DNA from: Planctomycetota bacterium
GTDB taxonomy: Bacteria > Planctomycetota > Phycisphaerae > Phycisphaerales > SM1A02
Assembly: GCA_026386795.1 (NCBI GenBank)
Contig: JAPLMU010000138.1
Coordinates: forward strand, 18,575 to 82,574
Direction: 5' to 3'
Length of the DNA stretch: 64,000 nucleotides
Shown here: one piece after another, positions 1-16,578 of the stretch
Position numbering within the stretch: position 1 is the stretch's first letter
How the letters are laid out: each line of letters opens with the position of its first letter
Translations under genes and position numbers: made by a program
The notes under the pieces: generated by a model
Databases searched by the model: none
The model's input: only the letters and a program-made list of their open reading frames with translations
Told to the model about the DNA's origin: nothing

Positions 1-144
1 CTCGACTTGCTGATGTTGGTGACCGGCATCGAGAAGCGATTTGGCCACAAGATCGCTCCCAAGAAGCTCGGCAAAGACACGATGTCGAGCGTGGGGGTGT
101 TCATTACATTTGCGCATGCAGAGTTGTTGGCGGCAGGCAAGTGA
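1..144 (+). CDS. Acyl carrier protein, C-terminal part (5' truncated by window edge)
   Basis: Frame 1 reads LDLLMLVTGIEKRFGHKIAPKKLGKDTMSSVGVFITFAHAELLAAGK*, the helix II-IV pattern of an ACP after the DSL site; stop overlaps next gene. Confidence 0.7.
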   Translation, partial: LDLLMLVTGIEKRFGHKIAPKKLGKDTMSSVGVFITFAHAELLAAGK

Positions 145-578
145 ACCACGGTTCACCCGAACAAATCTTGCCGCACCGCGAGCCGTTTTTGTTTGTAACT
201 GAAATTTGCCAACTCAGTGAAGGGGCGGTGCAGGCAACATGGAATGTCCGCGGCGATGAGGATTTCCTGCGCGGGCACTTTCCTGACGGCGCCATCGTTC
301 CCGGAGTGTTGATCGGCGAGGCGCTCGCGCAAGCCGCTGGCATTGCATTGACTTCTCTGCCAGGCGAAGGAATCGGGGCGCGTCGACCGGGGTATTTGGC
401 GCATATCAACCTGCGGTTCCACGCGCCCGCGCGTCCGCCCTGCCAGATTGACCTCAGCGCAAAGGTCTCCGGAGGCATGGGAGCGCTGCATCAATTTGAT
501 GTAGTGGCTCACTGTCAATCGGAACGATTGGCATCTGGAATTCTGGTTTTGGCGGTTCCGCCGACTACAGAGCAGTGA
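141..578 (+). CDS. Beta-hydroxyacyl-ACP dehydratase, FabZ-like hotdog fold
   Basis: ILPHREPFLFVTEI...GHFPDGAIVPGVLIGEALAQAAG motif; GTG start overlaps ACP stop by 4 bp. Confidence 0.85.
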   Translation: MNHGSPEQILPHREPFLFVTEICQLSEGAVQATWNVRGDEDFLRGHFPDGAIVPGVLIGEALAQAAGIALTSLPGEGIGARRPGYLAHINLRFHAPARPPCQIDLSAKVSGGMGALHQFDVVAHCQSERLASGILVLAVPPTTEQ

Positions 579-585
579 GCGACTG

Positions 586-2697
586 TTACTCCGGAACGAC
601 GCCGCGGTAGTAACTCATGACACTCAATTCCGTAGCGTGGCGAACGCCGACAAACCCTGCGGTTTCCAGCGCGGAAACGATGACTGCTGGTCGAACCGCA
701 TCGTCAACCGTCTCAGCCCAGTAGCGCATCATTGGGAATGTCGATGGGCGACCACTTGCCAACACTCCGACTGCGGGCGCAACATGTCGCATGGCAAATC
801 GGAAGATCGGGGCGGCGATCGTTCCACGCGCAGCAGTGACTTCGAGTACCACGATCCGTCCGCCGGTTCGCAGGACGCGCCGAGCTTCGGCGAAGACGAC
901 GCGCATGTCCTCAACGTGTCGCAACATGTACGCCATTGAAACGCAGTCAAATGAAGCGCTCGCAAAGGGCAAGTGCTCAGCAGCACCGAGTACCGTTTCT
1001 CGAACTCCACGGGTGCGCGCCACTTCCAACATTCCGGAACTCGGGTCGAGCGCCACCACCCGACCGGATTTGCCAACGATCTCCTGCTCAAGCAGCGCAC
1101 ACATGCCAGTACCACTGCCAACGTCTAAGACCGACATACCTTCGCGAAGTCCCGATGCTTGAAGTATGCGTCTTCGGTAACTATGCCCAAGTCCGCCAAG
1201 AAGCGCGCCATTTGCTCGGTCATAGCCCATGGCGCTGTTGTTGAACAACGCTTGCGTCCACCGCTCGCGATCGGACCGGTTTCGCAACTGAGACGGTCGC
1301 GCTACGACTGGCGGAATGACGGTTGCCATCCGTAGCACCTTTCCACTCGCCGTTCGCTTGAATTTTTTTACAAACGAGATGGTTCGAGGAACCGCGTGCG
1401 CGGGTACCCGCTCGGCGATGAACGCGCGCAGGGTCGCCGCATCGAGTTGGATATCGGGTGAGGTCAACTCTATGGACGCAGCGACGCGGGTCAGGCCATC
1501 AGCAAGCACGACCGGTTCAACAAGCGCCACGGCGACATCGGGGTGTTCTTCGATGGCCGCTTCAATGTCATACGGATTCACTTTCAGGCCAGCGACGTCA
1601 AACACCAGTTTCTCTCGACCTGTGATGTGAAAGAGCCCATCGGCGGAACGGACTCCAAGATCACCGGTTCGAAAGTATCCGCTCTGCATGGGCTCTTGGT
1701 CGCCCGCATGACCAACAATGCGATCAAATGCTGCGTTCGAGCGCACCGCGAGTTCGCCGCCCGCGCCCGTTGGAACGTCGATCATGGATTCCCGGCACAG
1801 AGGATCAACAAGTCGAACATCCACTCCGGCAATTGGGTGCCCGCCGGTGCCGCGATCAAGCCAGATGGTGCCAACTTCGCTTGCTCCGTACAGGTCAACG
1901 AGCGGAATGCCGAATACTCGCTCGAAATGCGTGCGCACTTGTTTACGAAGCGGCGACCCCGCCACCACGGCGCAGCGGAGTGTGTGCGGTGGAATGACGC
2001 TGCTTGCAAGCGCCGCGGCAGCTGCAGGCACCAGCGGAAGGACGGTCACGCCTTGAGAAATGAACTCGTGGGCACCTTCGATAGTGAATGACGCTTGCTG
2101 CCTGACTGATGCACCACACAGCAGCGGCGCTAAAAACGCATGCTCACATCCGTACGCATGGTGCATCGGCAAGAATGAGCCAACGATGTCATTGGGCTGA
2201 TACAGCTGAGCGTCAACAAGTCCAGCGGCAACGCAATCAACTGCTTCCGGACTGCGGTGAACGAAACGCGACACTCCCGTGGTGCCCGACGAAAGCAGCA
2301 CAATTCCACCATGTGGTTGCGTGCACTTGCTATCGGCCGCGCTCGCAGCGCTGTTGTGAATCAATTCCGCAAGAAGCGCGCTGTCAATGATGATGCTTGG
2401 TGCAAGTTCACGCTGAACTCGTTCCATCATGGCGCCGGGCGCTGCGTTGGCCATCAATACGGCATCACATCCAGCAAGCATGACCGCAAGACTGGCAATC
2501 CAGAAGTGACCGCCGGACGGAACCGATACTGCAACGAATGAGCCAGCTGCGCAGCGAAGTTCGATCGCCCGCGACACTGCATCCACTGAATTCAAGAGCG
2601 CACGGTTGGTCCACTCGCGACCGTCCGGGTCGGTGACCCGAACGCGGTCCGGAGCAGTGGCGCACTGTTCCGCGAGCGCCACGAGCAAACGGTTCAT
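586..2697 (-). CDS. Fusion: AMP-dependent acyl/aryl-ACP ligase (adenylation) + UbiE-like SAM methyltransferase
   Basis: LLSSGTTG, YGASEVG, YFRTGDLG, GREKLVFDVAGLKVNP, KRTASGKVLR adenylation motifs, then VLDVGSGTG...RVVALDPSSGML methyltransferase motif; start chosen at MNRLLVALAEQ because of 4-bp overlap with upstream gene. Confidence 0.85.
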   Translation of the reverse strand: MNRLLVALAEQCATAPDRVRVTDPDGREWTNRALLNSVDAVSRAIELRCAAGSFVAVSVPSGGHFWIASLAVMLAGCDAVLMANAAPGAMMERVQRELAPSIIIDSALLAELIHNSAASAADSKCTQPHGGIVLLSSGTTGVSRFVHRSPEAVDCVAAGLVDAQLYQPNDIVGSFLPMHHAYGCEHAFLAPLLCGASVRQQASFTIEGAHEFISQGVTVLPLVPAAAAALASSVIPPHTLRCAVVAGSPLRKQVRTHFERVFGIPLVDLYGASEVGTIWLDRGTGGHPIAGVDVRLVDPLCRESMIDVPTGAGGELAVRSNAAFDRIVGHAGDQEPMQSGYFRTGDLGVRSADGLFHITGREKLVFDVAGLKVNPYDIEAAIEEHPDVAVALVEPVVLADGLTRVAASIELTSPDIQLDAATLRAFIAERVPAHAVPRTISFVKKFKRTASGKVLRMATVIPPVVARPSQLRNRSDRERWTQALFNNSAMGYDRANGALLGGLGHSYRRRILQASGLREGMSVLDVGSGTGMCALLEQEIVGKSGRVVALDPSSGMLEVARTRGVRETVLGAAEHLPFASASFDCVSMAYMLRHVEDMRVVFAEARRVLRTGGRIVVLEVTAARGTIAAPIFRFAMRHVAPAVGVLASGRPSTFPMMRYWAETVDDAVRPAVIVSALETAGFVGVRHATELSVMSYYRGVVPE

Positions 2698-4013
2698 TGC
2701 AGAGCGGCTCCACGAGCGAGGCGTACGAGCGGAGCCCGATCTGTCACGCCGTCTGGGCGCAACCGGAATGGCCGAGTCCGGGGGGCAAACCCAACGCGTT
2801 TCTGCACTGCACACATGGAACCGAGCGCCCAGCAACGCACCGCCGTCGCGGGCTGAACTGCATCAAATTCACCAGCGAGCAGCGTCACGAATCCGCGCAC
2901 CAATTCACGAGGCTGACTTGGAGCAAAGAGAAGATCACGGAAGCCGGGGTCATAGAACCCCTCGACCAATCGGAAGGCGCGACCAACCACTCGAGTCGCC
3001 CATGCTTGATAGCGGGCGCGCTCTGCCGCCGGCCTTCCACCGCGCGACATACGAACCACGCCTGCAGCCGCCTGCTCGGCGGCGAGCAGCCCAAGCGTCA
3101 AACCCGTCGACCACACCGGGTCGAGGAATGCGGCGGCGTCGCCCACCAGAAAGAATCCGGGGCCTGCAAAGGGATCACACCGGTAAGTGAAGTCCGCAAT
3201 GACGCGATTCGTGGAAGGCCCGCGCGCGTTCGCCATGCGCTCAGCCATAATCGGCGTGCGTTCCACTGCCCACCAGAATCGATCTTCCGGAGCGACATCA
3301 AGAGTGCGGTGCAGCGGTTCACGTGCTACGAAACCAACGCTTGTGCGCTGGTCATCAAGCGGAATCAGCCAGAACCAACCCTCGTCCATCACGGTGAGTC
3401 CGAAGCAACCGGCAGCGTTGCCTGACGGGCGAATGACCCCTTCAAAGTGCTCAAAGTAGGCAACATTGCGGAGAAATGAGTGATATCGGCGCGTTCCAAA
3501 TTCGCGCCCCAAGGCGCTCGCCTGCCCGCTCGCGTCAATCATCCACTTGGCATGGACCGTGCCGGCATCGGTGTCGGCGATAATGCCATCATCGCCGTGC
3601 GACTGAATTGATCGCAACACGCACGAAGTGCGAACCTCTGCGCCCGCGTCACGCGCCGCTTCAACCATCATCATGTCAAGATGGATGCGCGCCATGTTGA
3701 ACGCGTCTTTCTCGCCGTTACCGATCGTGTCGCGGAAGAAGTATGTTCGCGATCCATAGCGGCGATCGCCCATGGATATCTCAACGCCAACTTTCCGAGC
3801 ATGCGGCAAAGCCATGCACCGATCGAGAACGCCAAGGCGACGGAGTGCGCGCTTGGTGCGGGGCAGAAAGCTCTCGCCGATGCGAAAGCGCGGAAACTCG
3901 CCACGATCAATCACCAGTACCTTTAAGCCTTCACGTGCCATGTCGATAGCCGCCGCGCTACCAGCGGGGCCAGCACCAATGACCAGGCAATCAACGTGCA
4001 ATATTTCAGACAT
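2694..4013 (-). CDS. FAD-dependent halogenase/oxidoreductase-like protein
   Basis: GAGPAGSAAAIDMAREGLKVLVIDRG FAD motif, RIGESFLP, WFWLIP (WxWxIP), KVGVEISMG around the potential catalytic Lys, FLVGDAAAFLDPVWSTG. Confidence 0.8.
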   Translation of the reverse strand: MSEILHVDCLVIGAGPAGSAAAIDMAREGLKVLVIDRGEFPRFRIGESFLPRTKRALRRLGVLDRCMALPHARKVGVEISMGDRRYGSRTYFFRDTIGNGEKDAFNMARIHLDMMMVEAARDAGAEVRTSCVLRSIQSHGDDGIIADTDAGTVHAKWMIDASGQASALGREFGTRRYHSFLRNVAYFEHFEGVIRPSGNAAGCFGLTVMDEGWFWLIPLDDQRTSVGFVAREPLHRTLDVAPEDRFWWAVERTPIMAERMANARGPSTNRVIADFTYRCDPFAGPGFFLVGDAAAFLDPVWSTGLTLGLLAAEQAAAGVVRMSRGGRPAAERARYQAWATRVVGRAFRLVEGFYDPGFRDLLFAPSQPRELVRGFVTLLAGEFDAVQPATAVRCWALGSMCAVQKRVGFAPRTRPFRLRPDGVTDRAPLVRLARGAALQ

Positions 4014-4839
4014 CGGCGACAGCCTCTACTTCCACAAGAAGCGCGTCGCGACACAGCGGGGCGTGCAGGACGCGTTCGCATTGATCGGCAAATTCATGTT
4101 GCGCCAAGCAGGAAATCGCGCTGATATGAGCCTTCTCGCGCACGTAAATCTGCACCGACCGCCAATGTCCGCGCGCTCCGGCAGACGTCCGTAGCGCTGC
4201 GAGATGACTGAGCGCCTCGCGCCACTGCGCCTCGATGTCATCCGGATGCGCGACATCCTCACCAACGACCGCCGCTGTTCCCGATGCCATCAGTAGATGG
4301 TCGGAAACAACTGCTCGCGTGAACGGCGGTGCCGATGGACCAAATTTGGAGGAATACTGCCACGCGGGAAGCTGTCTTGCATTTTCAATCGCCCGCAGAT
4401 TGCCCGGCATGGCAAGCGCATGAACAACGAGCGCGTCGCCGGCGTGGCCAACGCAGGTTCCCGCTGGCATGAATGCCATCGGCCAGCGCGCCGCGCGGTA
4501 CGCCTGCGCACGACCAGTGTTCATGCGCATGTAGCGATCGAGTCCATCAGAATCGCTCGCAGTAATCCTTGGCAAATACGCCCAGACACGGGTCGCCGCG
4601 CCATCAAGTTCATTGAGCACGTTCGAGAACGCAGTGAACGCTGCTTGCGCAAGTTGCTCTCCGGCGCAAGCAGCGACAGAAACGCTCGTTGATGCCATCG
4701 TGGCACCGCGTTCGAGCTCACTCGAAGTCCACGATGGCAAGTCACTTGCGGCGTCACCAGTGGCGCGCCAAGCATCGGAACCATGTCCGGAATGAGACTG
4801 AGGCGCACAGGGAACAGAGGACAAGGGCAACACGTTCAT
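4006..4839 (-). CDS. Chorismatase, FkbO/Hyg5/XanB2-like
   Basis: RVWAYLPRI...LDRYMRMNTGRAQAYR and C-terminal CRDALLVEVEAV resemble the FkbO/Hyg5 family; sits in a pigment-type cluster. Confidence 0.72.
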   Translation of the reverse strand: MNVLPLSSVPCAPQSHSGHGSDAWRATGDAASDLPSWTSSELERGATMASTSVSVAACAGEQLAQAAFTAFSNVLNELDGAATRVWAYLPRITASDSDGLDRYMRMNTGRAQAYRAARWPMAFMPAGTCVGHAGDALVVHALAMPGNLRAIENARQLPAWQYSSKFGPSAPPFTRAVVSDHLLMASGTAAVVGEDVAHPDDIEAQWREALSHLAALRTSAGARGHWRSVQIYVREKAHISAISCLAQHEFADQCERVLHAPLCRDALLVEVEAVADV

Positions 4840-6968
4840 ACTGTAGCAAACGACTGAAGAACCCCGTGTGCACTCGCCTGCACGGTCCAGACAAATCCGT
4901 TCGGATCCGCGCTAGAAATTGCCACATCGCGGGTGCGCGGTCGCGCAATTTCAAGCGCCAACGCCGCTGGTCCAGCGACACAGCCAATCTCAGGAAATGC
5001 GGTTCCTCCGTGTCCACTCACGCCTGGGCGCAGGGCTCCGCGATCGACCTGTGCACGTCCGATCTCCATGACTTCCGGCAGTGAATTCCCCGTGCTTGAG
5101 TCGATCCGCTCCATGAGAAATGCGATCCCGGCGGAGCGACTGCGCACGTTGCTGCCCGTGCAATTGCCGAGTACAGCGTCGATCGTCGGGTGGGATTCGT
5201 CAGCCATCACAATGAGGGCACGCTTCCATTCGCCCGATCGAATGCGGCACGAGGCAAGGAACATTGCCTCGAAACCCGCGGTGCGGGTACCGATCACGGT
5301 GGCACTTGCGGCGGTCATGCCGAGACCAAGTGATACGTGTGCGCTGCCGACATTCGGAACAGACTCGGCGAAGAGCACGGGGTTCGCGAGATCGATTCCC
5401 GAAGCAAGGAGATCGCGGTAGTACTGCTCCGTGAATCCAGCCGCACCGTGCCATGATGCCGCAAGAAGCGGTATGGACGCCAATTCATGCGCACTCAAGC
5501 CGGAAGCATCACAGAGATCGCGGGTTGCAGCGAGCATCAAACGCGGCAGCAACGCAAGGCGGCGCGTTCGCGCACGGTCAAGTAGTGGCGCGAGGATTTC
5601 CTCAGAAACATCACGCGTGTTGCAGTCGGCAAGATGCTCAAGGCCTGCGATTCCGCGCCCACCGGCAGAGACGCAACCGACGGCTCGAATACCGACGCGC
5701 GATGCCTCACGCGCATGCGTGTTCTCCGGCACCGCGCTCGCACCGACCCCACGAATGACCGACATCGCCACGTTTGCGCCGCCGAATCCTGCGGCCAGAA
5801 CGGTTACCCGTGTCGGTGCTCCCGGCCGAGGATTCTCATGCAATAGATCAATCTCAGGGAATGCTTGACGATCGACCGGTCGCCCCAGTCCGGCTGGCAT
5901 GAATCCCGCGTCAGCACACTTGAGGACCGCGAGTAGTTCCAACGCACCCGCCGCGCCAAGCGGATGACCGAAGCGACTCTTCAATGCAGTCACCGGAATG
6001 CGCGAGAGGTCCGCACCAAACGCCGTTCGGTACGCCTCATACTCCGCCGCGTCATTTCCAGCAGTTCCGGTGGCATGGGCAATCAATAGATCTGGCGTTC
6101 CGTTGGAAACAGCAGCTGCAAGCGCAACGGACGCGCCTCGACCTTCCGGATGCGGCTGCGTCAAATGATGCGCATCGCTCGACTCGCCGATCGCTTCAAT
6201 AATCGCCACGGGAACCTCTCCACGCGCGAGCGCGTCGGGCAGCCGCCGTAATAGTAAGAGCGCGCACCCTTCCGCAAGTTTCATGCCCTGTCGATCTTCA
6301 GCGAATGGGCTCAGTGGACCGGCAGCCACCAACTGCAATGCTGAGAATCCACCATAGGCAAACTCAGAAATTGGGTCATATCCGCCAGCAATGACGCAGG
6401 ATGCCGCTCCGGAGCGAAGCAACGAGCAACCATGTGCAATCGCGCTCAAGGCTGATGCGCACGCACACGAAACAGTGATCGCCCCGCCAGCAATTGGGAG
6501 TCCTTCAATCGCTCGACGCAGTACAGATCCAGCAGGAATACCTGCATAGGACTGCAGCGATTCCGACGCGTGTCCCGCTGCTTCCAAGCGCATCGCCGCG
6601 CCGCAATGGCGCATGCCAGCAAGCGTGGTGCCAACCACTATCGCCACCTGCGACGGATCCACGGCGAGCGTTCGCGCCGGATCAGCACCGAGCAGTTGTG
6701 CGAGCGCACGACGGAATAATCGCTCAGCTCGGTCTGTGTCCGATGCAGCAACGCGCGAAATAGCGTGCTGCGCTGAGTCACCATCTGCGACAGTGTGAAT
6801 ACCAAGATCCACCTGCCCCACGCCAGCGGCGATCGCCGGAGCCTGTTCCAACGCATCAGCTATTCCAACACCGCAACGAGTACTGCGAAGTGCCGCAGCG
6901 ATTGAGTCCAGATCAACACCCATGGCCCCCAAAGCAGCGGTTCGGACAATGGCGATGGGCGCATGCAT
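4836..6968 (-). CDS. Fusion: FabF-type beta-ketoacyl synthase + degenerate KS (chain-length-factor-like)
   Basis: First half has VSCACASAL (Cys), IAHATGT (His), SRFGHPLGAAGA (His); second half PNVGSAHVSLGLGMTAASATVIGTRTAGFEAM is KS-like without the catalytic Cys. Confidence 0.85.
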   Translation of the reverse strand: MHAPIAIVRTAALGAMGVDLDSIAAALRSTRCGVGIADALEQAPAIAAGVGQVDLGIHTVADGDSAQHAISRVAASDTDRAERLFRRALAQLLGADPARTLAVDPSQVAIVVGTTLAGMRHCGAAMRLEAAGHASESLQSYAGIPAGSVLRRAIEGLPIAGGAITVSCACASALSAIAHGCSLLRSGAASCVIAGGYDPISEFAYGGFSALQLVAAGPLSPFAEDRQGMKLAEGCALLLLRRLPDALARGEVPVAIIEAIGESSDAHHLTQPHPEGRGASVALAAAVSNGTPDLLIAHATGTAGNDAAEYEAYRTAFGADLSRIPVTALKSRFGHPLGAAGALELLAVLKCADAGFMPAGLGRPVDRQAFPEIDLLHENPRPGAPTRVTVLAAGFGGANVAMSVIRGVGASAVPENTHAREASRVGIRAVGCVSAGGRGIAGLEHLADCNTRDVSEEILAPLLDRARTRRLALLPRLMLAATRDLCDASGLSAHELASIPLLAASWHGAAGFTEQYYRDLLASGIDLANPVLFAESVPNVGSAHVSLGLGMTAASATVIGTRTAGFEAMFLASCRIRSGEWKRALIVMADESHPTIDAVLGNCTGSNVRSRSAGIAFLMERIDSSTGNSLPEVMEIGRAQVDRGALRPGVSGHGGTAFPEIGCVAGPAALALEIARPRTRDVAISSADPNGFVWTVQASAHGVLQSFATV

Positions 6969-8002
6969 TACCGCATACTCCGTCGCGCACAGGCGAGCGC
7001 CACCACTGTGGAGCCAACTGAAATCGCTATGAGCAAGCCAATTGATCGCATATCAAATCGACCGTCGATCGCTGCGCTACAGGCATCAATCGCCCAGGCC
7101 GGAAACAACCAGCCACCTACCGAGGCGATTGTCTTTGGAAGCAGTATCCGCGGAATCATGCTTCCAGACAGAGCACTCAGAACGAGCGTGATCACAGGTG
7201 CAATGGCTAAGAATCGAGCGCGCGAACCGCACAGCCCAGCAAGCGCTACGAAGAATGCCGCGCTCGAAACTGCGGCAACCCCGCTCGCGCACGCCAACGC
7301 AAGTACCGAACTTGGAACCAAGTGAAACACCGCGGCTGCCCATGCCAGCGTCAAAGCCAACTGCCACCACGCAATAACCGAAATCGCCACGATACGCGCG
7401 CCCGTTGATGCCGCAGCACTGATGCCCAGTGACCGTAATCGGTCCTGCAATCCGAGTGCGTCGTCACCGAGGCTTCGCGACGCGATCGAGGCAGATGAGA
7501 ACATGATGAAGATCAGCGCAATGCCCGCAGCGCTTCCGCGAACCAACATGCCGTCGAGTGATGTGATCTGGACCGAGAGCACCGGGACGTTCACTGCAAA
7601 GGCACGTGCGTTTGCTGCATTCACCAACTGCAGCGCGGCATCAGAAGCACCCGGAAGTGGCGACGCCGCCTCCACCAACACATGCGGATCGACGCGACTA
7701 AATCCATCCGGAATGCGAACTGTTGCCAGCATTCCGCGGTTATTGCCTTCCCCGTCCCGCAACTCTGAAACATGCACGCGCTGCATGGCAGACGACTCCA
7801 TTGCTTGAACAAAGAGCCGCGCGTCAGATGATCCGCAGTCGTCAACTACAGCAATCTCAAATCGGAATCCGTCGGTTGCCTCTAGATGCCTGTAGAACAG
7901 AGCAATCAGCGAGAAGAACGCAATCGGCGCTACCAGAGTCAACAGCGCAGCAATTCGATCCGCAACGAACGAGCGCAACATCGCAATAGTCAAAATGATC
8001 AT
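6968..8002 (-). CDS. ABC-2 type transporter permease
   Basis: N-terminal TM, large extracytoplasmic loop (IAVVDDCGSSDARLFVQAM...), then several TM helices; start MIILTIAML overlaps upstream gene stop. Confidence 0.75.
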   Translation of the reverse strand: MIILTIAMLRSFVADRIAALLTLVAPIAFFSLIALFYRHLEATDGFRFEIAVVDDCGSSDARLFVQAMESSAMQRVHVSELRDGEGNNRGMLATVRIPDGFSRVDPHVLVEAASPLPGASDAALQLVNAANARAFAVNVPVLSVQITSLDGMLVRGSAAGIALIFIMFSSASIASRSLGDDALGLQDRLRSLGISAAASTGARIVAISVIAWWQLALTLAWAAAVFHLVPSSVLALACASGVAAVSSAAFFVALAGLCGSRARFLAIAPVITLVLSALSGSMIPRILLPKTIASVGGWLFPAWAIDACSAAIDGRFDMRSIGLLIAISVGSTVVALACARRSMR

Positions 8003-8904
8003 TGCCGCCCCTCCCTGATCTGCATGAATGCCATCCACTGGGAAGGATGCTTGCGGATCGCTATTTCGAGCGCTGCCACCAACGCTTGCTGCGCTGGGTG
8101 GCATGCAACTTCTGTGGAACGCAGCGATTCGAGTTCGCAATAGATCGGTGCCATCATTTCAACTTCTAAGTCGTCGCCATTTCGGTAACAAAAGGTTGGG
8201 ACAATTGGCGCACCACATCCGAGAGCCAAACGCACTGCGCCCGTTGGAAGCACCGCGTCACTCGCCCCCAAGAATGGGATTCGCGATCCCTGCTGCATGG
8301 GCATCACACGATCGGCATGCAACACCACTACCTCGTTGGCGCGCAGCGCATCCTGCAGTGCAGCCCACGCAGAAACGCCATCACTCACCGCATGCTCAAT
8401 GACACCGAGTGATTGCCGCAGCGCGCTGCGTGCGCGCTCAAATCGCGGCATCGGATCCGGATGAAAGAGAACATGAATGCGAGGCTCAAACCTTCGAAGA
8501 AGCGCAATGGATGGCTCAAATGCGCCCATGTGTGCACTCGCAACGACTACTCCACGACCCAGGTCATGGGCGGCGTGGTATTGCTCTTGGCCGGAGAATC
8601 GTTTCACACGCGCTGCCAGTGCGTCGGCCGAAATTCCTTCTGAAAGCAGTATGTCTGCAATCGATCGCTGCATGTTCAGAAGCATTCCGGCAGCAACTGC
8701 GCGTACTTCCGATTCTGAAGCCTGCGGACCAAGTGCCAAGCGAGCGTTGGCACGCAGCGCGCGCCGCCAAGCAGGCACCGCCGCCATTCCACCGATCGCT
8801 ACCGCTCGACCCATCGCGGGCGCGAGCGCTGGTATGGAACAAATGGCTCCAAAGTACAGGTGATCAATCACGAGCCGCGCGGGGTGAAATGCAGAAAGAG
8901 TCAC
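7999..8904 (-). CDS. LpxL/HtrB-type lysophospholipid/lipid A acyltransferase family
   Basis: ARLALG..., GVVVASAHMGAFE, VVVLHADRVMPMQQGSRIPFLG, CGAPIVPTFCYR. Confidence 0.8.
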   Translation of the reverse strand: MTLSAFHPARLVIDHLYFGAICSIPALAPAMGRAVAIGGMAAVPAWRRALRANARLALGPQASESEVRAVAAGMLLNMQRSIADILLSEGISADALAARVKRFSGQEQYHAAHDLGRGVVVASAHMGAFEPSIALLRRFEPRIHVLFHPDPMPRFERARSALRQSLGVIEHAVSDGVSAWAALQDALRANEVVVLHADRVMPMQQGSRIPFLGASDAVLPTGAVRLALGCGAPIVPTFCYRNGDDLEVEMMAPIYCELESLRSTEVACHPAQQALVAALEIAIRKHPSQWMAFMQIREGRQ

Positions 8905-10223
8905 AGGTTCACCTCAACGCGCCGCGCGAAACTTGGCAACGCGTCGAGCCAGGATGAGGCGTGCGTTGCAAGAATCACTGTCCCGCGCCGCGAGAGGACC
9001 GACTCAACGGTACGAACCAACGCCTCGCGCCCGCCCGCGTCGAGCCCAGCATCTGGTTCATCAAGCACTAACACGAACGGTGTGTGAATGACTGCGCACG
9101 CGAGCGCCGTTCGACGGCGCAATCCGCCCGACAATCGGTCAACGCGGCGCGCGGCATGGTCTTCAAGTCCAAATTCGCGCATGCAGCGCGCGACTGCGGC
9201 GGATCGTTCCGCGGCGGGAACTTGCGCCAAACGCGCGGACGTTTCTAGATTTGCCACGACGTTCAGTGCTGAAAATAGCCCACCTTCCTGAGGGTGAAAG
9301 CCCGGCAGCAACGCGGTCTGATCAATCCAAGCGCGCCCTGCTGACGGCTTCAATGCCCCCACCATGCATGCCAGGAGCGTGCTCTTTCCTGACCCGTTCG
9401 CTCCGGTGACGTGAACGAGTTCACCGGAACGCGCCACGAAACTCACGTCGGAAAGGACGCGCCGCGTGCCGTACGAAAAACGGATGGCCTCGGCGCGGGC
9501 AAGCGGACGCCCCACCGGTATCGGCTGCAACGGACCAGGTACACCGGTCAGCACGAACCGCGCGCCACGCACGCGACGCACTCGAATGTCTAACAGCCCT
9601 GCGGCTTCCGCCACGGCGCGCGCCTCGGGCATGGTAAAGCTGCGGCGCACACTGACGACGGCGTCATGGTGCAACTCACGACTTGCTGCCAAGGTAGAAA
9701 GTTGTGCGCCCCAGATGCCAAGCGAATCGCGGATCAAATCGTTCCACACAACCAGTTCACGCGCCACCGCAGACATCGCGCGCAGGCCAGCGACCGCAGA
9801 CTCATCATCAAGATGATGCATGACCAGCGAAGCGTGCGCCACATCAAAGCTCCGCGCACCAAGAATGCTCTCCGCTGCAAGCATGTCAACAACGCGGAAC
9901 TCAGTTCCTGCTTGAGCAAGCGAACCCGTCGCGGACCCAGCCGCGGCTCGCGCCCGCCCCATGTCGATGGCATCCTCGCTCCGGTCAGTGCAAAGAACGG
10001 AGCAGTCCCAACCGCGCGTCTGCGCCAACCGCAAGAATCTCTCAGGAATATCAGCTCCGCCGCACCCAAAGTCAACAAGCGACAACGGACGCGTAGATGC
10101 CCCAGGCACCCGATCCGCAATCGCGTTCACGATCGCATCGGCCGCGCCAGTCGCGCGGTTCAGGCGCCGAAGAAATCGATACTCATCAGTGAGAACCGAA
10201 CGGCTCGGAGAAGCATCGTCCAT
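8901..10223 (-). CDS. Fusion: class I SAM methyltransferase + ABC transporter ATP-binding domain
   Basis: LVDFGCGGADIPERFL methyltransferase motif; GANGSGKSTLLACMVG Walker A, LSGGLRRRTALACAV signature, VLVLDEPDAGLD Walker B; start MDDASPSRS. Confidence 0.87.
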   Translation of the reverse strand: MDDASPSRSVLTDEYRFLRRLNRATGAADAIVNAIADRVPGASTRPLSLVDFGCGGADIPERFLRLAQTRGWDCSVLCTDRSEDAIDMGRARAAAGSATGSLAQAGTEFRVVDMLAAESILGARSFDVAHASLVMHHLDDESAVAGLRAMSAVARELVVWNDLIRDSLGIWGAQLSTLAASRELHHDAVVSVRRSFTMPEARAVAEAAGLLDIRVRRVRGARFVLTGVPGPLQPIPVGRPLARAEAIRFSYGTRRVLSDVSFVARSGELVHVTGANGSGKSTLLACMVGALKPSAGRAWIDQTALLPGFHPQEGGLFSALNVVANLETSARLAQVPAAERSAAVARCMREFGLEDHAARRVDRLSGGLRRRTALACAVIHTPFVLVLDEPDAGLDAGGREALVRTVESVLSRRGTVILATHASSWLDALPSFARRVEVNL

Positions 10224-10349
10224 GCTCTCCCGCTCTTTCGATCGATGGCGCAGTTCTGGGAATTCCACAGCCGTTGCACCATACCGGAACTCGGGAGAAT
10301 GCAGCAAAGCACTCCTCCGATTCCGATGGCAATCCTTATCATGTCCCCC

Positions 10350-10760
10350 ATGAAGCACACAGGCTCAATCGCGTCCGCACTGATTGCCGTCATCATCCTC
10401 GCTGGCTGTGCAACCTCCGACTACGGGCGGATCACTGACAAGATCGCAGCCTATGAAGTGCAAGCAGTCACAGCGCGCGACAACCTGAAGACCGCCAATT
10501 CACAGTCCAAGATCACCCTCTATCGCACGCTCATCAACCTCAACAACAAGCAACTTGAGATTGCACGTCGCATCAATCCAGAATCGAATCCGGCTTTCAA
10601 GAGTGGCTCAATCACGCTCGAGCAATCCAAGAAGGACAAGGCAGAGCGCATCGCCAAGCTTGAGAAGCAACTGGAACAGACCATGAAGGAGCGCGACGGA
10701 CTCTCGATTGTGATCGAAACTCCTGCTGCTGCTCCTGCCCCTGCCCCTGCACCGAAGTAA
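10350..10760 (+). CDS. Small coiled-coil lipoprotein
   Basis: MKHTGSIASALIAVIILAGCATSDYG lipobox; coiled-coil KLEKQLEQTMKERD; Ala-Pro C-terminus. Confidence 0.65.
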   Translation: MKHTGSIASALIAVIILAGCATSDYGRITDKIAAYEVQAVTARDNLKTANSQSKITLYRTLINLNNKQLEIARRINPESNPAFKSGSITLEQSKKDKAERIAKLEKQLEQTMKERDGLSIVIETPAAAPAPAPAPK

Positions 10761-10779: not shown

Positions 10780-12177
10780 TCAGGCCGGACTGAGCCCAAG
10801 ACCCGAGCGCACCATGTTTCCCGCCACTGACCGCATCGCCCCATAGAAACGCCCGGCACCCAAAGCGCGGCATGTTGCTGCAGTTGCCGTGGCAATTGCT
10901 TCAACATCTGCTTCGTTCACCACCAGCGGCGGCATAAATTTCAGCAGTGGGCGACGCGCGCCGGTTGTTTGCGCCAAGATCGAATGCGCCTCGAGCAGCT
11001 CCATGATGGCCGCTTGGCCAATCATCGGTTCCGTAAATCGGCCGAGAAGCGGCACGTTCGCAAAGCTAGGAATTCTGGCTGTATCAAGGTCAATACCAAT
11101 CATGAGCCCTTTGCCGCGGATCTCACGAACGCTGCCAATCCCCGCACACTCTGCTCGCAGCCTGCGCATCAGCAGTTCACCCAATTCCGCAGCACGAGCC
11201 GCCAACTTGTCCTCGACGATGACCTCAAGCGTGGCGATCAACGCAACCATCGCCAGTGGTCCTTCATGGAAAGTGGAGCTATGAACGACCGATCGGTCCA
11301 TTGAACTGAATGTGGAATCCCACACATCGCTCCGCACCAAGACGGCACCAACCGGCACGAATCCGCCAGAGAGTGCTTTCGCCATCACCACAATTTCGGG
11401 CTCGACGCCATCGTGATGCACCGCAAGAAATGCGCCGGTTCGGCCCGCGCCGGTTTGAATTTCATCAGCAATCAGCAGTGTGCCATAGCGCTTGCACAGA
11501 GCATGAGCCTCGCGCAGCACGCCCGGCGCAAGCGAACGAAGCGTCTTTCCTTGAACAGGCTCAACAACTACGGCTGCGACCGTCCGTGAACTGAGCGCGC
11601 GTTCGAGCGCTTCAAGATCACCAAACTCAATGATCGCAGCGCCCGGCAGAAGCGGACCAAATCCGCGCCGTAAATCTTCATTGCCATTAATGGAAAGTGC
11701 GCCGCAGGTCAGACCGTGAAATGAGTCCGACCACGCAAGCAAGCCCGGTCGCCCAGTGTGCTGGCGCGCAAATTTGATGGCCGCCTCCACCGCTTCGGTT
11801 CCTGAGTTCGTGAAGAACACGCGATCAACGCCCCCACCACACTGCAACTTAAGCCGACGAGCAGCCTCAGCAGCCAACGGGTTCAACTCCCAACGCACCC
11901 ACGCTGGCGGGGCGAGCGTGAGGCATTGCGAAATGGCGTCCACAACAACCGGATGTGCGCGACCAAGCGCCAGCGCCCCGTATCCGGCCAAGCAATCAAG
12001 GATTCGATTTCCCTGCGCATCCCACAGGTACTGGCCTTCGCCACGAACATAACTGCGATCGACGCCAATCAATTCCACGAGCTTTGCGAACGCCGGATTC
12101 ATGTGACCAAAGTGCGACTCGCGCGCGTTTTCTCGGGCGCTGGCAATCAGTGCTGCAACATCAATCCGTTCCGCCAT
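10780..12177 (-). CDS. Class III PLP-dependent aminotransferase
   Basis: FFTNSGTEAVEAAIKFARQHTGR, LIADEIQTGAGRTG, VMAKALSGGFVPVGAVL. Confidence 0.88.
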   Translation of the reverse strand: MAERIDVAALIASARENARESHFGHMNPAFAKLVELIGVDRSYVRGEGQYLWDAQGNRILDCLAGYGALALGRAHPVVVDAISQCLTLAPPAWVRWELNPLAAEAARRLKLQCGGGVDRVFFTNSGTEAVEAAIKFARQHTGRPGLLAWSDSFHGLTCGALSINGNEDLRRGFGPLLPGAAIIEFGDLEALERALSSRTVAAVVVEPVQGKTLRSLAPGVLREAHALCKRYGTLLIADEIQTGAGRTGAFLAVHHDGVEPEIVVMAKALSGGFVPVGAVLVRSDVWDSTFSSMDRSVVHSSTFHEGPLAMVALIATLEVIVEDKLAARAAELGELLMRRLRAECAGIGSVREIRGKGLMIGIDLDTARIPSFANVPLLGRFTEPMIGQAAIMELLEAHSILAQTTGARRPLLKFMPPLVVNEADVEAIATATAATCRALGAGRFYGAMRSVAGNMVRSGLGLSPA

Positions 12178-12204: not shown

Positions 12205-13266
12205 ATGCCTTCATTTGTCGGAATCATTCCCCTCTACAACCACGCGTTGACGGTTCCGGATGTTCTTGCTGGCCTCCACGCCAAGGGCCTGTACGCGATT
12301 GTTGTTGACGATGGCAGCACTGATGGCGGCGCGGAAATTGCCGAGTACTGGCTCCGCGCGCACCGCGCGTCCGGCGAAGTGATTCGTGGACCGAAGAACC
12401 AGGGCAAAGCCGCTGCCCTGCTCGCCGGTTTCGACGCCGCCACCAAGCGCGGAGCAACACACGCGTTGACGATCGATGCCGATGGGCAACATGACTGCGC
12501 GCGCATCGCTGACTTTCTGAACGCGCTTCCCGCAGTACGTCCAGAACGAACACTCGTCCTGGGTGATCGCCGCGCGCTGCCGAGCACCTATCCGACCGCG
12601 CGCCTCTTCGGGCGATTTCTAAGTGGACTTGCCGTACGCGCCGCGTGCGGAGCCATCGTTGGCGATGCGGCGTGCGGCATGCGGCTCTATCCACTTGCAA
12701 TGACCCGCGCGCTGCATTGCCGAAGCGGCCGCTATGCATGGGAAGAAGAAGCGATCATCCGGCTCGTATGGTCCGGAGCGCAACTGCAGCAAGTGGAGAT
12801 ACCAGTCATCTACCGCAATGCGGCGATTGCTCCAAGCCATTATCAATTTAAGCGCGACTGGCTCGAAGGCACGCTCGTTCTTGTGTACAGCATTCTGCTG
12901 CGCGCATTCAGCAGCGGACGACACTGGACACACGACGGATCCACGCGCATCGATCTGCTTTGGCCGCTCGGCAAACGCGAACGCATATCGCGGTGCCTGG
13001 TGAGCATGCTGGCCGCGTTCACGGTTGCCGTCACGGGCATCACCGCAGGTGCACTTACTGCGATGAACACTTCACTGCCGGTCGCTGCAACCGTTGCTGG
13101 CATCATCATGTGGATCGCGCTTCGAACCAACGCACCGTTGCTCCTCGTTGCAATCGGATGGATTGCGGGCTACTTTGCTCCCGTAGCAACTCTCCTCGCT
13201 GCGCCCATCATTGGTGCATTGTGGAGCTTTACAACCATGCGCAGGCTGCGCGGCGCACCCGTCTAG
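12205..13266 (+). CDS. Glycosyltransferase family 2 with C-terminal TM segments
   Basis: MPSFVGIIPLYNHALTVPDVL...AIVVDDGSTDGG...ALTIDADGQHD. Confidence 0.85.
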   Translation: MPSFVGIIPLYNHALTVPDVLAGLHAKGLYAIVVDDGSTDGGAEIAEYWLRAHRASGEVIRGPKNQGKAAALLAGFDAATKRGATHALTIDADGQHDCARIADFLNALPAVRPERTLVLGDRRALPSTYPTARLFGRFLSGLAVRAACGAIVGDAACGMRLYPLAMTRALHCRSGRYAWEEEAIIRLVWSGAQLQQVEIPVIYRNAAIAPSHYQFKRDWLEGTLVLVYSILLRAFSSGRHWTHDGSTRIDLLWPLGKRERISRCLVSMLAAFTVAVTGITAGALTAMNTSLPVAATVAGIIMWIALRTNAPLLLVAIGWIAGYFAPVATLLAAPIIGALWSFTTMRRLRGAPV

Positions 13267-13982
13267 CCGCCCCGCAACGCCTCAATTTCACCGCGCATTC
13301 GACTTAAGAAATCACTATTCGATTCATTCGCCTCGATCCGCATCGGCGTTCCTGCATTCACATGAACTGCGCCGGCATTGATGAACTTCCCGCCCACCGG
13401 CAGCAGTCGATCGCTGCCTTCAATCCAAATCGGCAGAACACGCGCATGAGTTGCCCGCGCGATGTGCGCCACTCCCATGCGAAAGCGCCCCATCGACGCG
13501 CTCCGCGCCCGTGTTCCTTCTGGAAACAAAATCACATTCCAACCAGACTGCAGCAGCCCCGTGATTCGCTCAACGCCATCACCCATGTCATCACCGCGAC
13601 CAATGAGACAGACGCGGTACGTCCGTACGACATACGAACACAGCGCAGTCCGAAACAATCGCTTTAAGCCCCGATCAGAAGCTGACGGCGAAAAGAAATC
13701 CCGCGCACCAACCGTCGCCGTCCGTGCACGCATTGCAGCAGGAAGCGCGTGGCGAATAGCGGCGGTATCAAGCAAACTTCGATGGTTGGCAGCAAGGATC
13801 ATCGGTCCCTCCGCAAACTTGGCGCTGTCAAGGCCAGCGGAACTGAACTGCACGCGACAGGCGTGCTCAATGAAATCACTGCTGCGATCGCCGATCCATG
13901 CAAACGCGCTCGCCGTTGGTCCGGTCAATGCGCGCACTGACTCAGGCATACCAGCGGATTTCTCTTTGCTAGCGCTCCCCAT
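13263..13982 (-). CDS. 1-acyl-sn-glycerol-3-phosphate acyltransferase (PlsC-like)
   Basis: LAANHRSLLDTA (NHxxxxD), ILFPEGTRARSASMGRF. Confidence 0.85.
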   Translation of the reverse strand: MGSASKEKSAGMPESVRALTGPTASAFAWIGDRSSDFIEHACRVQFSSAGLDSAKFAEGPMILAANHRSLLDTAAIRHALPAAMRARTATVGARDFFSPSASDRGLKRLFRTALCSYVVRTYRVCLIGRGDDMGDGVERITGLLQSGWNVILFPEGTRARSASMGRFRMGVAHIARATHARVLPIWIEGSDRLLPVGGKFINAGAVHVNAGTPMRIEANESNSDFLSRMRGEIEALRGG

Positions 13983-13984
13983 CT

Positions 13985-14500
13985 TCAGCGCGCCTTTCCG
14001 ATCAAGTGAATTTCAATTTGATTGTCACCAGCAGTCGGGACGATCGCACACGCGTTCCATGATGGCGGCAGTAGCGGCGCAGGCTTGCCGCTGAATCCCC
14101 ACGGTTCGCTGGGTATTCCCAGTGGACCGCGATTGAGTTCTTCATTTGAATCAATGTCCTGAAAGACCGAGACCACCACCGGGCGCCCCGAACGCGCGTG
14201 CAATTCAAACTCGGCGCGCTCCTTTGCCGCAGGGACGCTGAACCCCTCGGCAATTCCACCGCGCGTCAAGAAAGTGGCCCGATCTGCGTAGAGCGCACAG
14301 CGCACCATCCCGCGCCCAAGCGTTATGCCGAGCACCGTCACATGAAGCGTGGCGGGCGCGCCATCAGCAAGCACAGGCGCGCCGTCCGCAAGCACAGGCT
14401 CTGCCGATTGGCAGCCAACCTGCATCACGGCCGCCATCATCAACGCTACCGCGGGCGTGCACATCAACACACGACCACCGCGATACATTGCCGCGATCAC
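13985..14500 (-). CDS. DUF2141-like secreted protein
   Basis: MVRCALYADRATFL...VVVSVFQDIDSNEELNRGPLGIPSEPWGFS pattern. Confidence 0.7.
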   Translation of the reverse strand: MIAAMYRGGRVLMCTPAVALMMAAVMQVGCQSAEPVLADGAPVLADGAPATLHVTVLGITLGRGMVRCALYADRATFLTRGGIAEGFSVPAAKERAEFELHARSGRPVVVSVFQDIDSNEELNRGPLGIPSEPWGFSGKPAPLLPPSWNACAIVPTAGDNQIEIHLIGKAR

Positions 14501-15633
14501 GCTGCGCTCTTCTCGCCAACATCTTTCGCTATCCCAAGTTGCACCAAGCGCTCAATGGGACGATGGGGCTTCTTCGATTCCTCAACCAGTCGCTCTGCAG
14601 CGGCTTGGTTTGGGTAGAGCGGAGCAACCAGCGCCTTCACGTTCGCCCAGATGCCTGTGACACCTGAGAATGTGTAATCAACAGCTGTTGGCTCGTAGCC
14701 ACAATGCACCATGCAGTTCTGGCACTTCGGATTACCGCTCTTGACGCCGTAGCGTTCCCAAGCGGTGTCTTCCATGAGTTCCTTGAAGGTGTCGTAGTAC
14801 CCCTCCTGAAGGAGGTAGCACGGCTTCTGCCATCCAAAGATGTTGAAAGCAGGGCTGCCCCACGGAGTGCACTCAAAGTCGCGCTTACCCATGAGGAACT
14901 CAAGGAAAAGCGGGCTCATGTTGAACTTCCAACTCTTCTTGCGATTGGAGAGAATCATCTCGAAGAGCTCGTTGGTCTTGCGGCGACCCAAGAAACTCTC
15001 CTGATCGGGAGCCTTGTCGTAGGCGTAGCCGGGGCTGACCATCATGCCTTCAACGCCGAGCTCCATCATCTCATCAAAGAAATTGCGTACCGAACCGGGA
15101 TCCGTGGCTTGAAACAGCGTGGTGTTGGTGGTGACGCGGAAACCCATCTTCACTGCGAGGCGAATGCCTTCGAGCGCCTTCTGAAAAGTGCCCTCGCGGC
15201 AGACCGCGAAGTCATGGTGCTCTTCTTGGCCATCCATGTGGACACTGAAACTGAGGTACTTGCTTGGCTTGAAGAAACCGGCTTCGAGCTTCTCCTTTAA
15301 GAGGAGCGCGTTCGTGCAGAGGTAGATGTACTTCTTGCGCGCAACCAAGGCCTCAACAATTTCCTTGATCTCCGGATGCAGCAATGGTTCGCCGCCTGGA
15401 ATGCTCACCATGGGCGCGCCGCACTCGTCGACCGCGCGCATGCATTCTGCAACGCTGAGGTTCTTCTTCAAGATGTGCGGCGGGTACTGAATCTTGCCGC
15501 AGCCAGCGCAGGACAGATTGCAGCGAAAGAGTGGCTCAAGCATGAGCACTAACGGGTAGCGCTTGATTCCGCGGACACGTTGTCCGAGAACGTACGAAGC
15601 AACGGTCCACATCTGGGAAATCGGGACAGCCAT
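14497..15633 (-). CDS. hpnH: HpnH-type radical SAM protein (adenosylhopane synthesis)
   Basis: CNLSCAGCGKIQYP CxxxCxxC; length and full-length pattern (PLVLMLEPLFRCNL..., SVHMDGQEEHHD) typical of HpnH; start MAVPISQMW. Confidence 0.88.
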   Translation of the reverse strand: MAVPISQMWTVASYVLGQRVRGIKRYPLVLMLEPLFRCNLSCAGCGKIQYPPHILKKNLSVAECMRAVDECGAPMVSIPGGEPLLHPEIKEIVEALVARKKYIYLCTNALLLKEKLEAGFFKPSKYLSFSVHMDGQEEHHDFAVCREGTFQKALEGIRLAVKMGFRVTTNTTLFQATDPGSVRNFFDEMMELGVEGMMVSPGYAYDKAPDQESFLGRRKTNELFEMILSNRKKSWKFNMSPLFLEFLMGKRDFECTPWGSPAFNIFGWQKPCYLLQEGYYDTFKELMEDTAWERYGVKSGNPKCQNCMVHCGYEPTAVDYTFSGVTGIWANVKALVAPLYPNQAAAERLVEESKKPHRPIERLVQLGIAKDVGEKSAA

Positions 15634-15948
15634 GGTGGTTCCGGGGCTCCTAAGGGGGCGAAGGAAATCTTCACAAACAGTCCGAACTCGGGCGATCCGA
15701 GTCGGGGGCGAGATCGTAGCACCTTCATGACGACCATCGCTGCACGAGCGATTACCCTTGAGGAACTGATGACCGCGCAGGGAAGCGCCGTCAACGCCCT
15801 CCCCTTCGACACCATGCTGGACGGCCTCGGCGACCTTGCCGGGGTCGTGGCCCGACGAGTCCGCCAATTCACGGAAGGAACCGCGGCGAAGCCCCGTTCC
15901 TGCCGTAGTATGCCGCACCGCGCGACCGCCGGAAGCGCACCTTCCACG

Positions 15949-16578
15949 ATGGCGACCGCCGAGCAAACCGACGAATCCCTCCTGACTGCCTACATCGACG
16001 GCGACCGCCAAGCGTTCGCCGCCCTGTTGGAGCGCTATCGGACGGAACTGCACGGCTTCCTTGCCCGCTTCCTTGGCTCAAGCGCGGCTGCCGACGACGT
16101 CTTTCAGGAGACCTTTCTGCAGGTTCACCTTGCAGCGAGCACCTTCGACAGCACACGCAATTTCAAACCATGGCTCTTCACGATCGCCGCCAACAAGGCG
16201 CGAGACTGGCACCGACGGCAGAAGCGCCGTCGCGCTGCAAGCCTTGACGCCCCAATCGGCGGCGACCCTGATGGAACACGGATGGTGGATCTCATGCAGT
16301 CCAAGGCCGAAGTGCCTTCGGTCTCGCTTGAGGGCGCGGAGACGCGAGATCGCGTCAAAGATGTGGTGGATTCAATGCCTGCCCTTTATCGCGAAGTTCT
16401 CCAGCTCAATTACTTTCAGAAGATGAGCTACCAGCAAATCGCTGAAGTTCTTGGTGTGCCGCTGGGCACTGTAAAAAGTCGTTTGCACGCTGCTGTTGCC
16501 ACTTTCGCAGAGTCATGGAAGACTGCTGATGCGCGTTCCACGCGCACATCAAGCGCGAACAAGGAGTCGAAGGCATGA
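15949..16578 (+). CDS. ECF-type RNA polymerase sigma factor
   Basis: DDVFQETFLQVH (region 2), MPALYREVLQLNYFQKMSYQQIAEVLGVPLGTVKSRLHAA (region 4). Confidence 0.92.
   Translation: MATAEQTDESLLTAYIDGDRQAFAALLERYRTELHGFLARFLGSSAAADDVFQETFLQVHLAASTFDSTRNFKPWLFTIAANKARDWHRRQKRRRAASLDAPIGGDPDGTRMVDLMQSKAEVPSVSLEGAETRDRVKDVVDSMPALYREVLQLNYFQKMSYQQIAEVLGVPLGTVKSRLHAAVATFAESWKTADARSTRTSSANKESKA

Follow-up and report, generated by a model that had tools for sequence, protein, structure and literature searches.

A ketosynthase and a short chain-length-factor-like domain in one polypeptide from a xanthomonadin-like planctomycete gene cluster

A gene in the window analysed here (a 64,000-nucleotide stretch of contig JAPLMU010000138.1 from a freshwater planctomycete) encodes a ketosynthase (KS) and a chain-length-factor (CLF)-like domain in one chain, and we consider it likely, with a probability of roughly 0.78, that the protein is a covalent ApeO-ApeC-like KS-CLF pseudo-dimer elongating an aryl polyene from hydroxybenzoate. 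The fused gene itself, its conservation, its catalytic residues, the predicted fold and the content of the cluster were seen directly in the analysis. A literature search, with subscription journals mostly outside its coverage, returned no description of a fused aryl polyene KS-CLF and found KS-CLF didomains for PUFA synthases only. Covalent KS-CLF as such is known from PUFA synthases (PMC9702510); as a joined ApeO-ApeC-like pair within xanthomonadin-like clusters of planctomycetes, it appears not to have been described.

The fused gene and its relatives

An earlier note on this DNA, made from the letters alone, had described a KS and a CLF-like domain fused in one polypeptide at 4836–6968, and this description is supported by the sequence as well as by structure prediction and fold search. 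Translation of the plus strand runs into in-frame stops, which rules out that reading, and the gene was therefore assigned to the minus strand. There it belongs to an operon-like run, its 5' end sharing 1 nt with the stop of an ABC-2 permease gene and its stop sharing 4 nt with the start of the next gene, which is chorismatase-like. The gene and its parts are as follows.

4836–6968, minus strand: fused KS-CLF gene, 710 aa (stop codon 4836–4838; ATG start; open frame conserved in relatives)
5751–6968, minus strand: ApeO-like ketosynthase domain, residues 1–406 (Pfam PF00109/PF02801; NCBIfam PRK09185 best; hhalign to E. coli ApeO)
6459–6461, minus strand: codon of the nucleophile Cys170 in CACAS (invariant in 50/50 relatives)
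6075–6077, minus strand: codon of His298 in HATGT (invariant in 50/50 relatives)
5979–5981, minus strand: codon of Lys330 (invariant in 50/50 relatives)
5964–5966, minus strand: codon of His335 in FGHPLGAAGA (invariant in 50/50 relatives)
5700–5750, minus strand: interdomain linker, residues 407–423, with low pLDDT at 414–419 (AlphaFold model and alignment of relatives)
4839–5699, minus strand: CLF-like domain, residues 424–710, with a reduced C-terminal thiolase subdomain (FabF alignment, scan of the half alone, fold)
5283–5285, minus strand: codon of Arg562, the nucleophile-equivalent position of the CLF half (Arg 40, Val 5 and Ala 4 of 49 relatives)

The search for domain fusions that the note had proposed showed that 22 of 101 genomes in this planctomycete's family encode the protein as one open fused frame. 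When 85,462 species genomes were scanned, about 50 public loci came up in which the fused frame is complete or nearly so, and almost all of them are planctomycete. In a phylum-wide sample at E<=1e-50, in which few candidates were scored per genome, the protein was matched in its own genome alone (1/296). Because the same fused frame occurs in independent assemblies, an assembly artefact or a missed stop can be ruled out, and the suspicion that a stop or start had been overlooked between the halves was not borne out. In a comparison with a 94%-identical relative (L028), the KS half had a dN/dS of 0.14 and the CLF half one of 0.17, so purifying selection acts on both. Close relatives of the window protein also lie at contig ends filed under Chitinophaga, Burkholderiales and Caulobacteraceae (L033, L034, L081 and L087); these records are probably mis-binned or mis-named.

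A single clade (support 100/99) holds the KS halves of the fused set. Its sister consists of a groundwater planctomycete with separate genes (L086) and a fused neighbour of the latter (L088). Outside the window's class, KS and CLF are encoded by separate genes that overlap or adjoin in L086, in Holophagae (L097, L098, L100, L103 and L104) and in Desulfovibrio (L102). One genome (L068) carries a separate pair in addition to the fused gene. This pair (L068:16626-18817) consists of overlapping genes for a KS (399 aa) and a CLF-like protein (331 aa); two ACP-like frames flank it, and the fused gene lies a few kb away. Further KS-CLF-like fusions are present in Myxococcota and in a Bacteroidaceae genome (L094), where two adjoining KS-ApeC-like fusions of 587 and 579 aa (L094:7738-11488) lie in an aryl-polyene/flexirubin-like cluster. 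A single origin of all KS-CLF fusions gave an AU p of 0.31 when L086 and L087 were kept with the planctomycetes. In an earlier test, placing L088 apart from its sister L086 gave a strongly negative result, but this test is confounded since L086 carries two genes that overlap and the L087 contig is truncated.

The two halves and their predicted fold

The KS half is, judged by its sequence, a complete ketosynthase with Cys170/His298/Lys330/His335, and by profile it is placed with ApeO, the aryl polyene KS. The note had read an intact Cys-His-His set (CACAS, HATGT, FGHPLGAAGA) in this half, and all 50 relatives share these three residues. Two Pfam KS domains cover residues 4–359, PRK09185 is the best NCBIfam model for the fused protein, and hhalign to ApeO of E. 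coli CFT073 gave a probability of 99.96% at 30% identity. In the KS tree, the phylogeny called for in the note for this half, the KS half falls outside the FabF clade (support 100/97) and near ApeO-type KSs, a grouping that the AU test left unrejected (p 0.27). Origin by FabF duplication is ruled out by the same tree.

The second half contains PNVGSAHVSLGLG and TVIGTRTAGFEAM. The note had claimed that it keeps the KS scaffold, has Arg instead of Cys at the nucleophile position and lacks an HGTGT motif, and all of this was confirmed: alignment to the sequence of a FabF structure sets TVIGTR over TVVTAC, making Arg562 the nucleophile position, and the residue is Arg in 40, Val in 5, Ala in 4 and Cys in none of 49 relatives. 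Recognisable FabF similarity stops at about residue 266 of 408, so no HGTGT is expected and the C-terminal region of the catalytic His/Lys is reduced. The half is only 287 residues long and its modelled secondary structure has no KS C-terminal helices; alignment and model thus both suggest that the second thiolase subdomain is mostly lost. We regard the second half as an ApeC-like, shortened CLF and not a full-length one. The Pfam scan of the full protein gave PF13723 at 465–596 below the cut-off; with the half scanned alone, PF00109 came just over the cut-off and PF13723 again below it, and 7 of 19 relatives match PF13723 at E<=0.01. A profile comparison of the half with E. coli ApeC fell short of significance (hhalign probability 1.4%, though collinear). 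None of the 49 relatives has Gln at the CLF nucleophile position, where actinorhodin-type KS-beta carries it. The Gln of CLFs of the ORF16 type has not been retained either, so a decarboxylase role for the CLF half is unsupported.

One could also take the second half for the decayed, functionless leftover of a KS duplication, since Cys/His/Lys are missing from it, its second thiolase subdomain is incomplete, and it is less conserved than the KS half (mean column identity 37% versus 50%). This seems scarcely credible to us: the second half retains 22 invariant columns across 19 diverse sequences, with R469/R470 and N539 among its conserved residues, its dN/dS of 0.17 indicates constraint, it folds confidently in the model, and deletion of the half-size CLF ORF16 abolishes the pigment in Lysobacter (PMC3691225).

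An AlphaFold2 model of the whole chain, built as a single chain with 19 window/locus sequences, reached a mean pLDDT of 85.4 and a pTM of 0.91, giving a confident KS-CLF model of the kind the note had proposed to look for. The best PDB match in Foldseek was 6riw, the KS-CLF didomain of PfaC (900 alignment columns, TM 0.74 by query length), and since the match spans 900 columns the two halves share one arrangement with the PfaC didomain; the superposition has an rmsd of 7.6 A, so the match concerns the arrangement and not the detail. Modelled alone, the CLF half scored a pLDDT of 86.6 and a pTM of 0.89 and matched FabF and the CLFs of ishigamide and anthraquinone synthases (query TM up to 0.78), which predicts a thiolase fold for the second half, where the note had considered that there might be none. 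Another possible arrangement is that KS-CLF chains pair head to tail in a domain-swapped manner, the KS of one with the CLF of the other, so that the fusion mainly fixes stoichiometry. The linkers of the fused relatives are short and variable (13–39 residues, ~17 in the window protein) and the model covers one chain only, both of which would be compatible with such pairing, but the single-chain model pairs the two halves with a pTM of 0.91 and the best match is PfaC KS-CLF as one chain. We therefore judge head-to-tail pairing to be rather improbable and favour the pseudo-dimer within one chain.

Gene neighbourhood and proposed pathway

The genes around the KS-CLF gene are listed below, with counts from a clustering of the genes around 50 fused loci.

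141–578, plus strand: FabZ-like dehydratase (domain profile matches; 23/50 loci)
586–2835, minus strand: AMP ligase fused to a UbiE-like methyltransferase (domain profile matches; AMP ligase in 30/50 loci)
2694–4013, minus strand: FAD-dependent halogenase-like flavoprotein (GxGxxG and WFWLIP present; 32/50 loci)
4006–4839, minus strand: chorismatase-like protein of XanB2/FkbO/Hyg5 fold, 277 aa (4-nt overlap with the KS-CLF gene; 35/50 loci)
6968–8140, minus strand: ABC-2 type permease (1-nt stop overlap with the KS-CLF start; Pfam; 23/50 loci)
7999–8904, minus strand: LpxL-like acyltransferase, in an ApeD-like place in aryl polyene clusters (36/50 loci)
8901–10358, minus strand: methyltransferase fused to ABC ATPase, 485 aa (Pfam; 18/50 loci)
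10780–12177, minus strand: class III aminotransferase (17/50 loci)
12205–13266, plus strand: family 2 glycosyltransferase (26/50 loci)
13263–13982, minus strand: PlsC-like acyltransferase (14/50 loci)

LolA and MMPL are neighbours in 11 loci each, and an ACP with a GLDSLD motif lies directly upstream of the fused gene in about 10 of the 50. Ligase and methyltransferase share one frame at 586–2835; many other clusters from planctomycetes encode a ligase of ~490 aa, which leaves no room for the methyltransferase. The methyltransferase/ABC ATPase fusion at 8901–10358 adjoins a separate ABC-2 permease gene. Upstream of the cluster (14497–16053, minus strand) lies a radical SAM protein with DUF3463, whose domain make-up we take to be similar to that of HpnH-type hopanoid enzymes.

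Xanthomonadin/arcuflavin clusters contain a XanB2-type chorismatase, a halogenase and an AMP ligase (PMC3949708), and the gene content of the fused gene's neighbourhood points to the xanthomonadin/aryl-polyene type. The chorismatase in the window has a trimmed N-terminal part and keeps Cys263/Glu270, which align with Cys327/Glu334 of Hyg5, where the Glu at this position starts 3-hydroxybenzoate formation (PMC7170507). Owing to the gene classes of the neighbours and this Cys/Glu match, a hydroxybenzoate-primed aryl polyene is the most likely product class. A different product, such as a specialised membrane lipid or another reduced polyketide, is unlikely but carries some weight: neither KR nor ACP was found in the window's cluster, the cluster has an ABC permease, acyltransferases and an aminotransferase, and the chorismatase is absent from some relatives' neighbourhoods. 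Against it stand the frequency of the chorismatase and the AMP ligase (35 and 30 of 50 neighbourhoods), the LolA, MMPL and ACP genes in other neighbourhoods, and the position of the KS outside FabF and near ApeO-type KSs.

For the aryl polyene, we infer the following route. The chorismatase would supply hydroxybenzoate and the AMP ligase would activate it, after which KS-CLF would extend it with malonyl-ACP, the N-terminal ApeO-like KS performing a decarboxylative Claisen condensation via Cys170/His298/His335. The catalytically dead, short CLF-like domain would fold back on the KS as its pseudo-dimer partner and complete the acyl tunnel, and by analogy with the part that ApeC plays for ApeO, it probably sets the polyene length. 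In each round a ketoreductase and the FabZ-like enzyme would produce a conjugated double bond, followed by tailoring (methylation and perhaps halogenation), acylation and export. The carriers found in the genome, which is 86.65% complete, are a housekeeping AcpP adjoining FabG and an NRPS-like carrier domain and nothing else, and the pathway may borrow its ACP and KR from housekeeping genes. We counted against the ApeO-ApeC-like reading the hhalign probability of 1.4% to ApeC, the sub-threshold PF13723, the lack of an ORF16-type Gln, the ACP and KR not found in the cluster of this 86.65% complete genome, and the rmsd of 7.6 A to 6riw. A bolder proposal, conceivable though on balance doubtful, is that planctomycetes of this family carry a distinct aryl polyene synthase, an obligate single-chain KS-CLF with Arg for the CLF Gln, and that the lake genus uses housekeeping AcpP and FabG to make a halogenated aryl polyene new to the phylum.

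A natural covalent minimal KS-CLF for aryl polyenes would have a fixed 1:1 pairing, so that one could test by mutagenesis or half-swaps in a single chain how the CLF contributes to polyene length, without concern about homodimers. The finding also extends xanthomonadin-like clusters to uncultured lake planctomycetes, which such pigments could protect against light and oxidants, as is reported for the pigment in Lysobacter (PMC3691225).

Comparison with known systems

The note's remark that KS and CLF are normally separate proteins holds for type II PKS and for characterised aryl polyene systems, but not for PUFA synthases, in which covalent KS-CLF is established (PfaC, PDB 6riw; PMC9702510), nor for the KS-CLF-like fusions in Bacteroidota and Myxococcota. 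PfaC has the two domains covalently joined in the same order and is the best whole-chain fold match, but it is a multidomain megasynthase of an unrelated pathway with a full-length CLF and 14% identity; the window protein has no further domain in its 710 aa, and no Pfa genes lie beside it. PigJ of prodigiosin biosynthesis (NCBIfam NF053555) is likewise a tandem KS-type protein of similar length, but the weak match is limited to the KS half, far below the curated cut-off, and the pathway differs. The actinorhodin-type KS-CLF (1tqy) and ishigamide Iga11-Iga12 (6kxd) resemble the window protein in fold and division of labour, whereas they consist of two chains with a full-length CLF and are remote in sequence.

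The Lysobacter ORF17/ORF16 and xanthomonadin/arcuflavin systems (PMC3691225, PMC3949708) share with the window's cluster a XanB2-type chorismatase, a halogenase, an AMP ligase, acyltransferases and a half-size CLF. Their KS and CLF are separate, and the CLF Gln, mutation of which (Gln166 in ORF16) abolishes the pigment as deletion does (PMC3691225), has no equivalent in the window protein. The known CLFs of the ApeC/ORF16 type are half-size proteins that comprise a single thiolase subdomain (PMC8358021, PMC3691225); in the systems characterised so far, ApeO condenses and ApeC completes the cavity (PMC8358021). ApeO-ApeC (Xenorhabdus 6QSP and Acinetobacter; PMC8358021) has a KS in the ApeO profile, an inactive half-size partner of thiolase fold and the same kind of cluster, and the E. 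coli aryl polyene cluster contains the same gene classes as the fused loci. There the KS and the 240-aa CLF are encoded by separate genes ~9 kb apart, while the window protein joins a KS and a 287-aa CLF half, with Arg at the nucleophile-equivalent position, in one chain.
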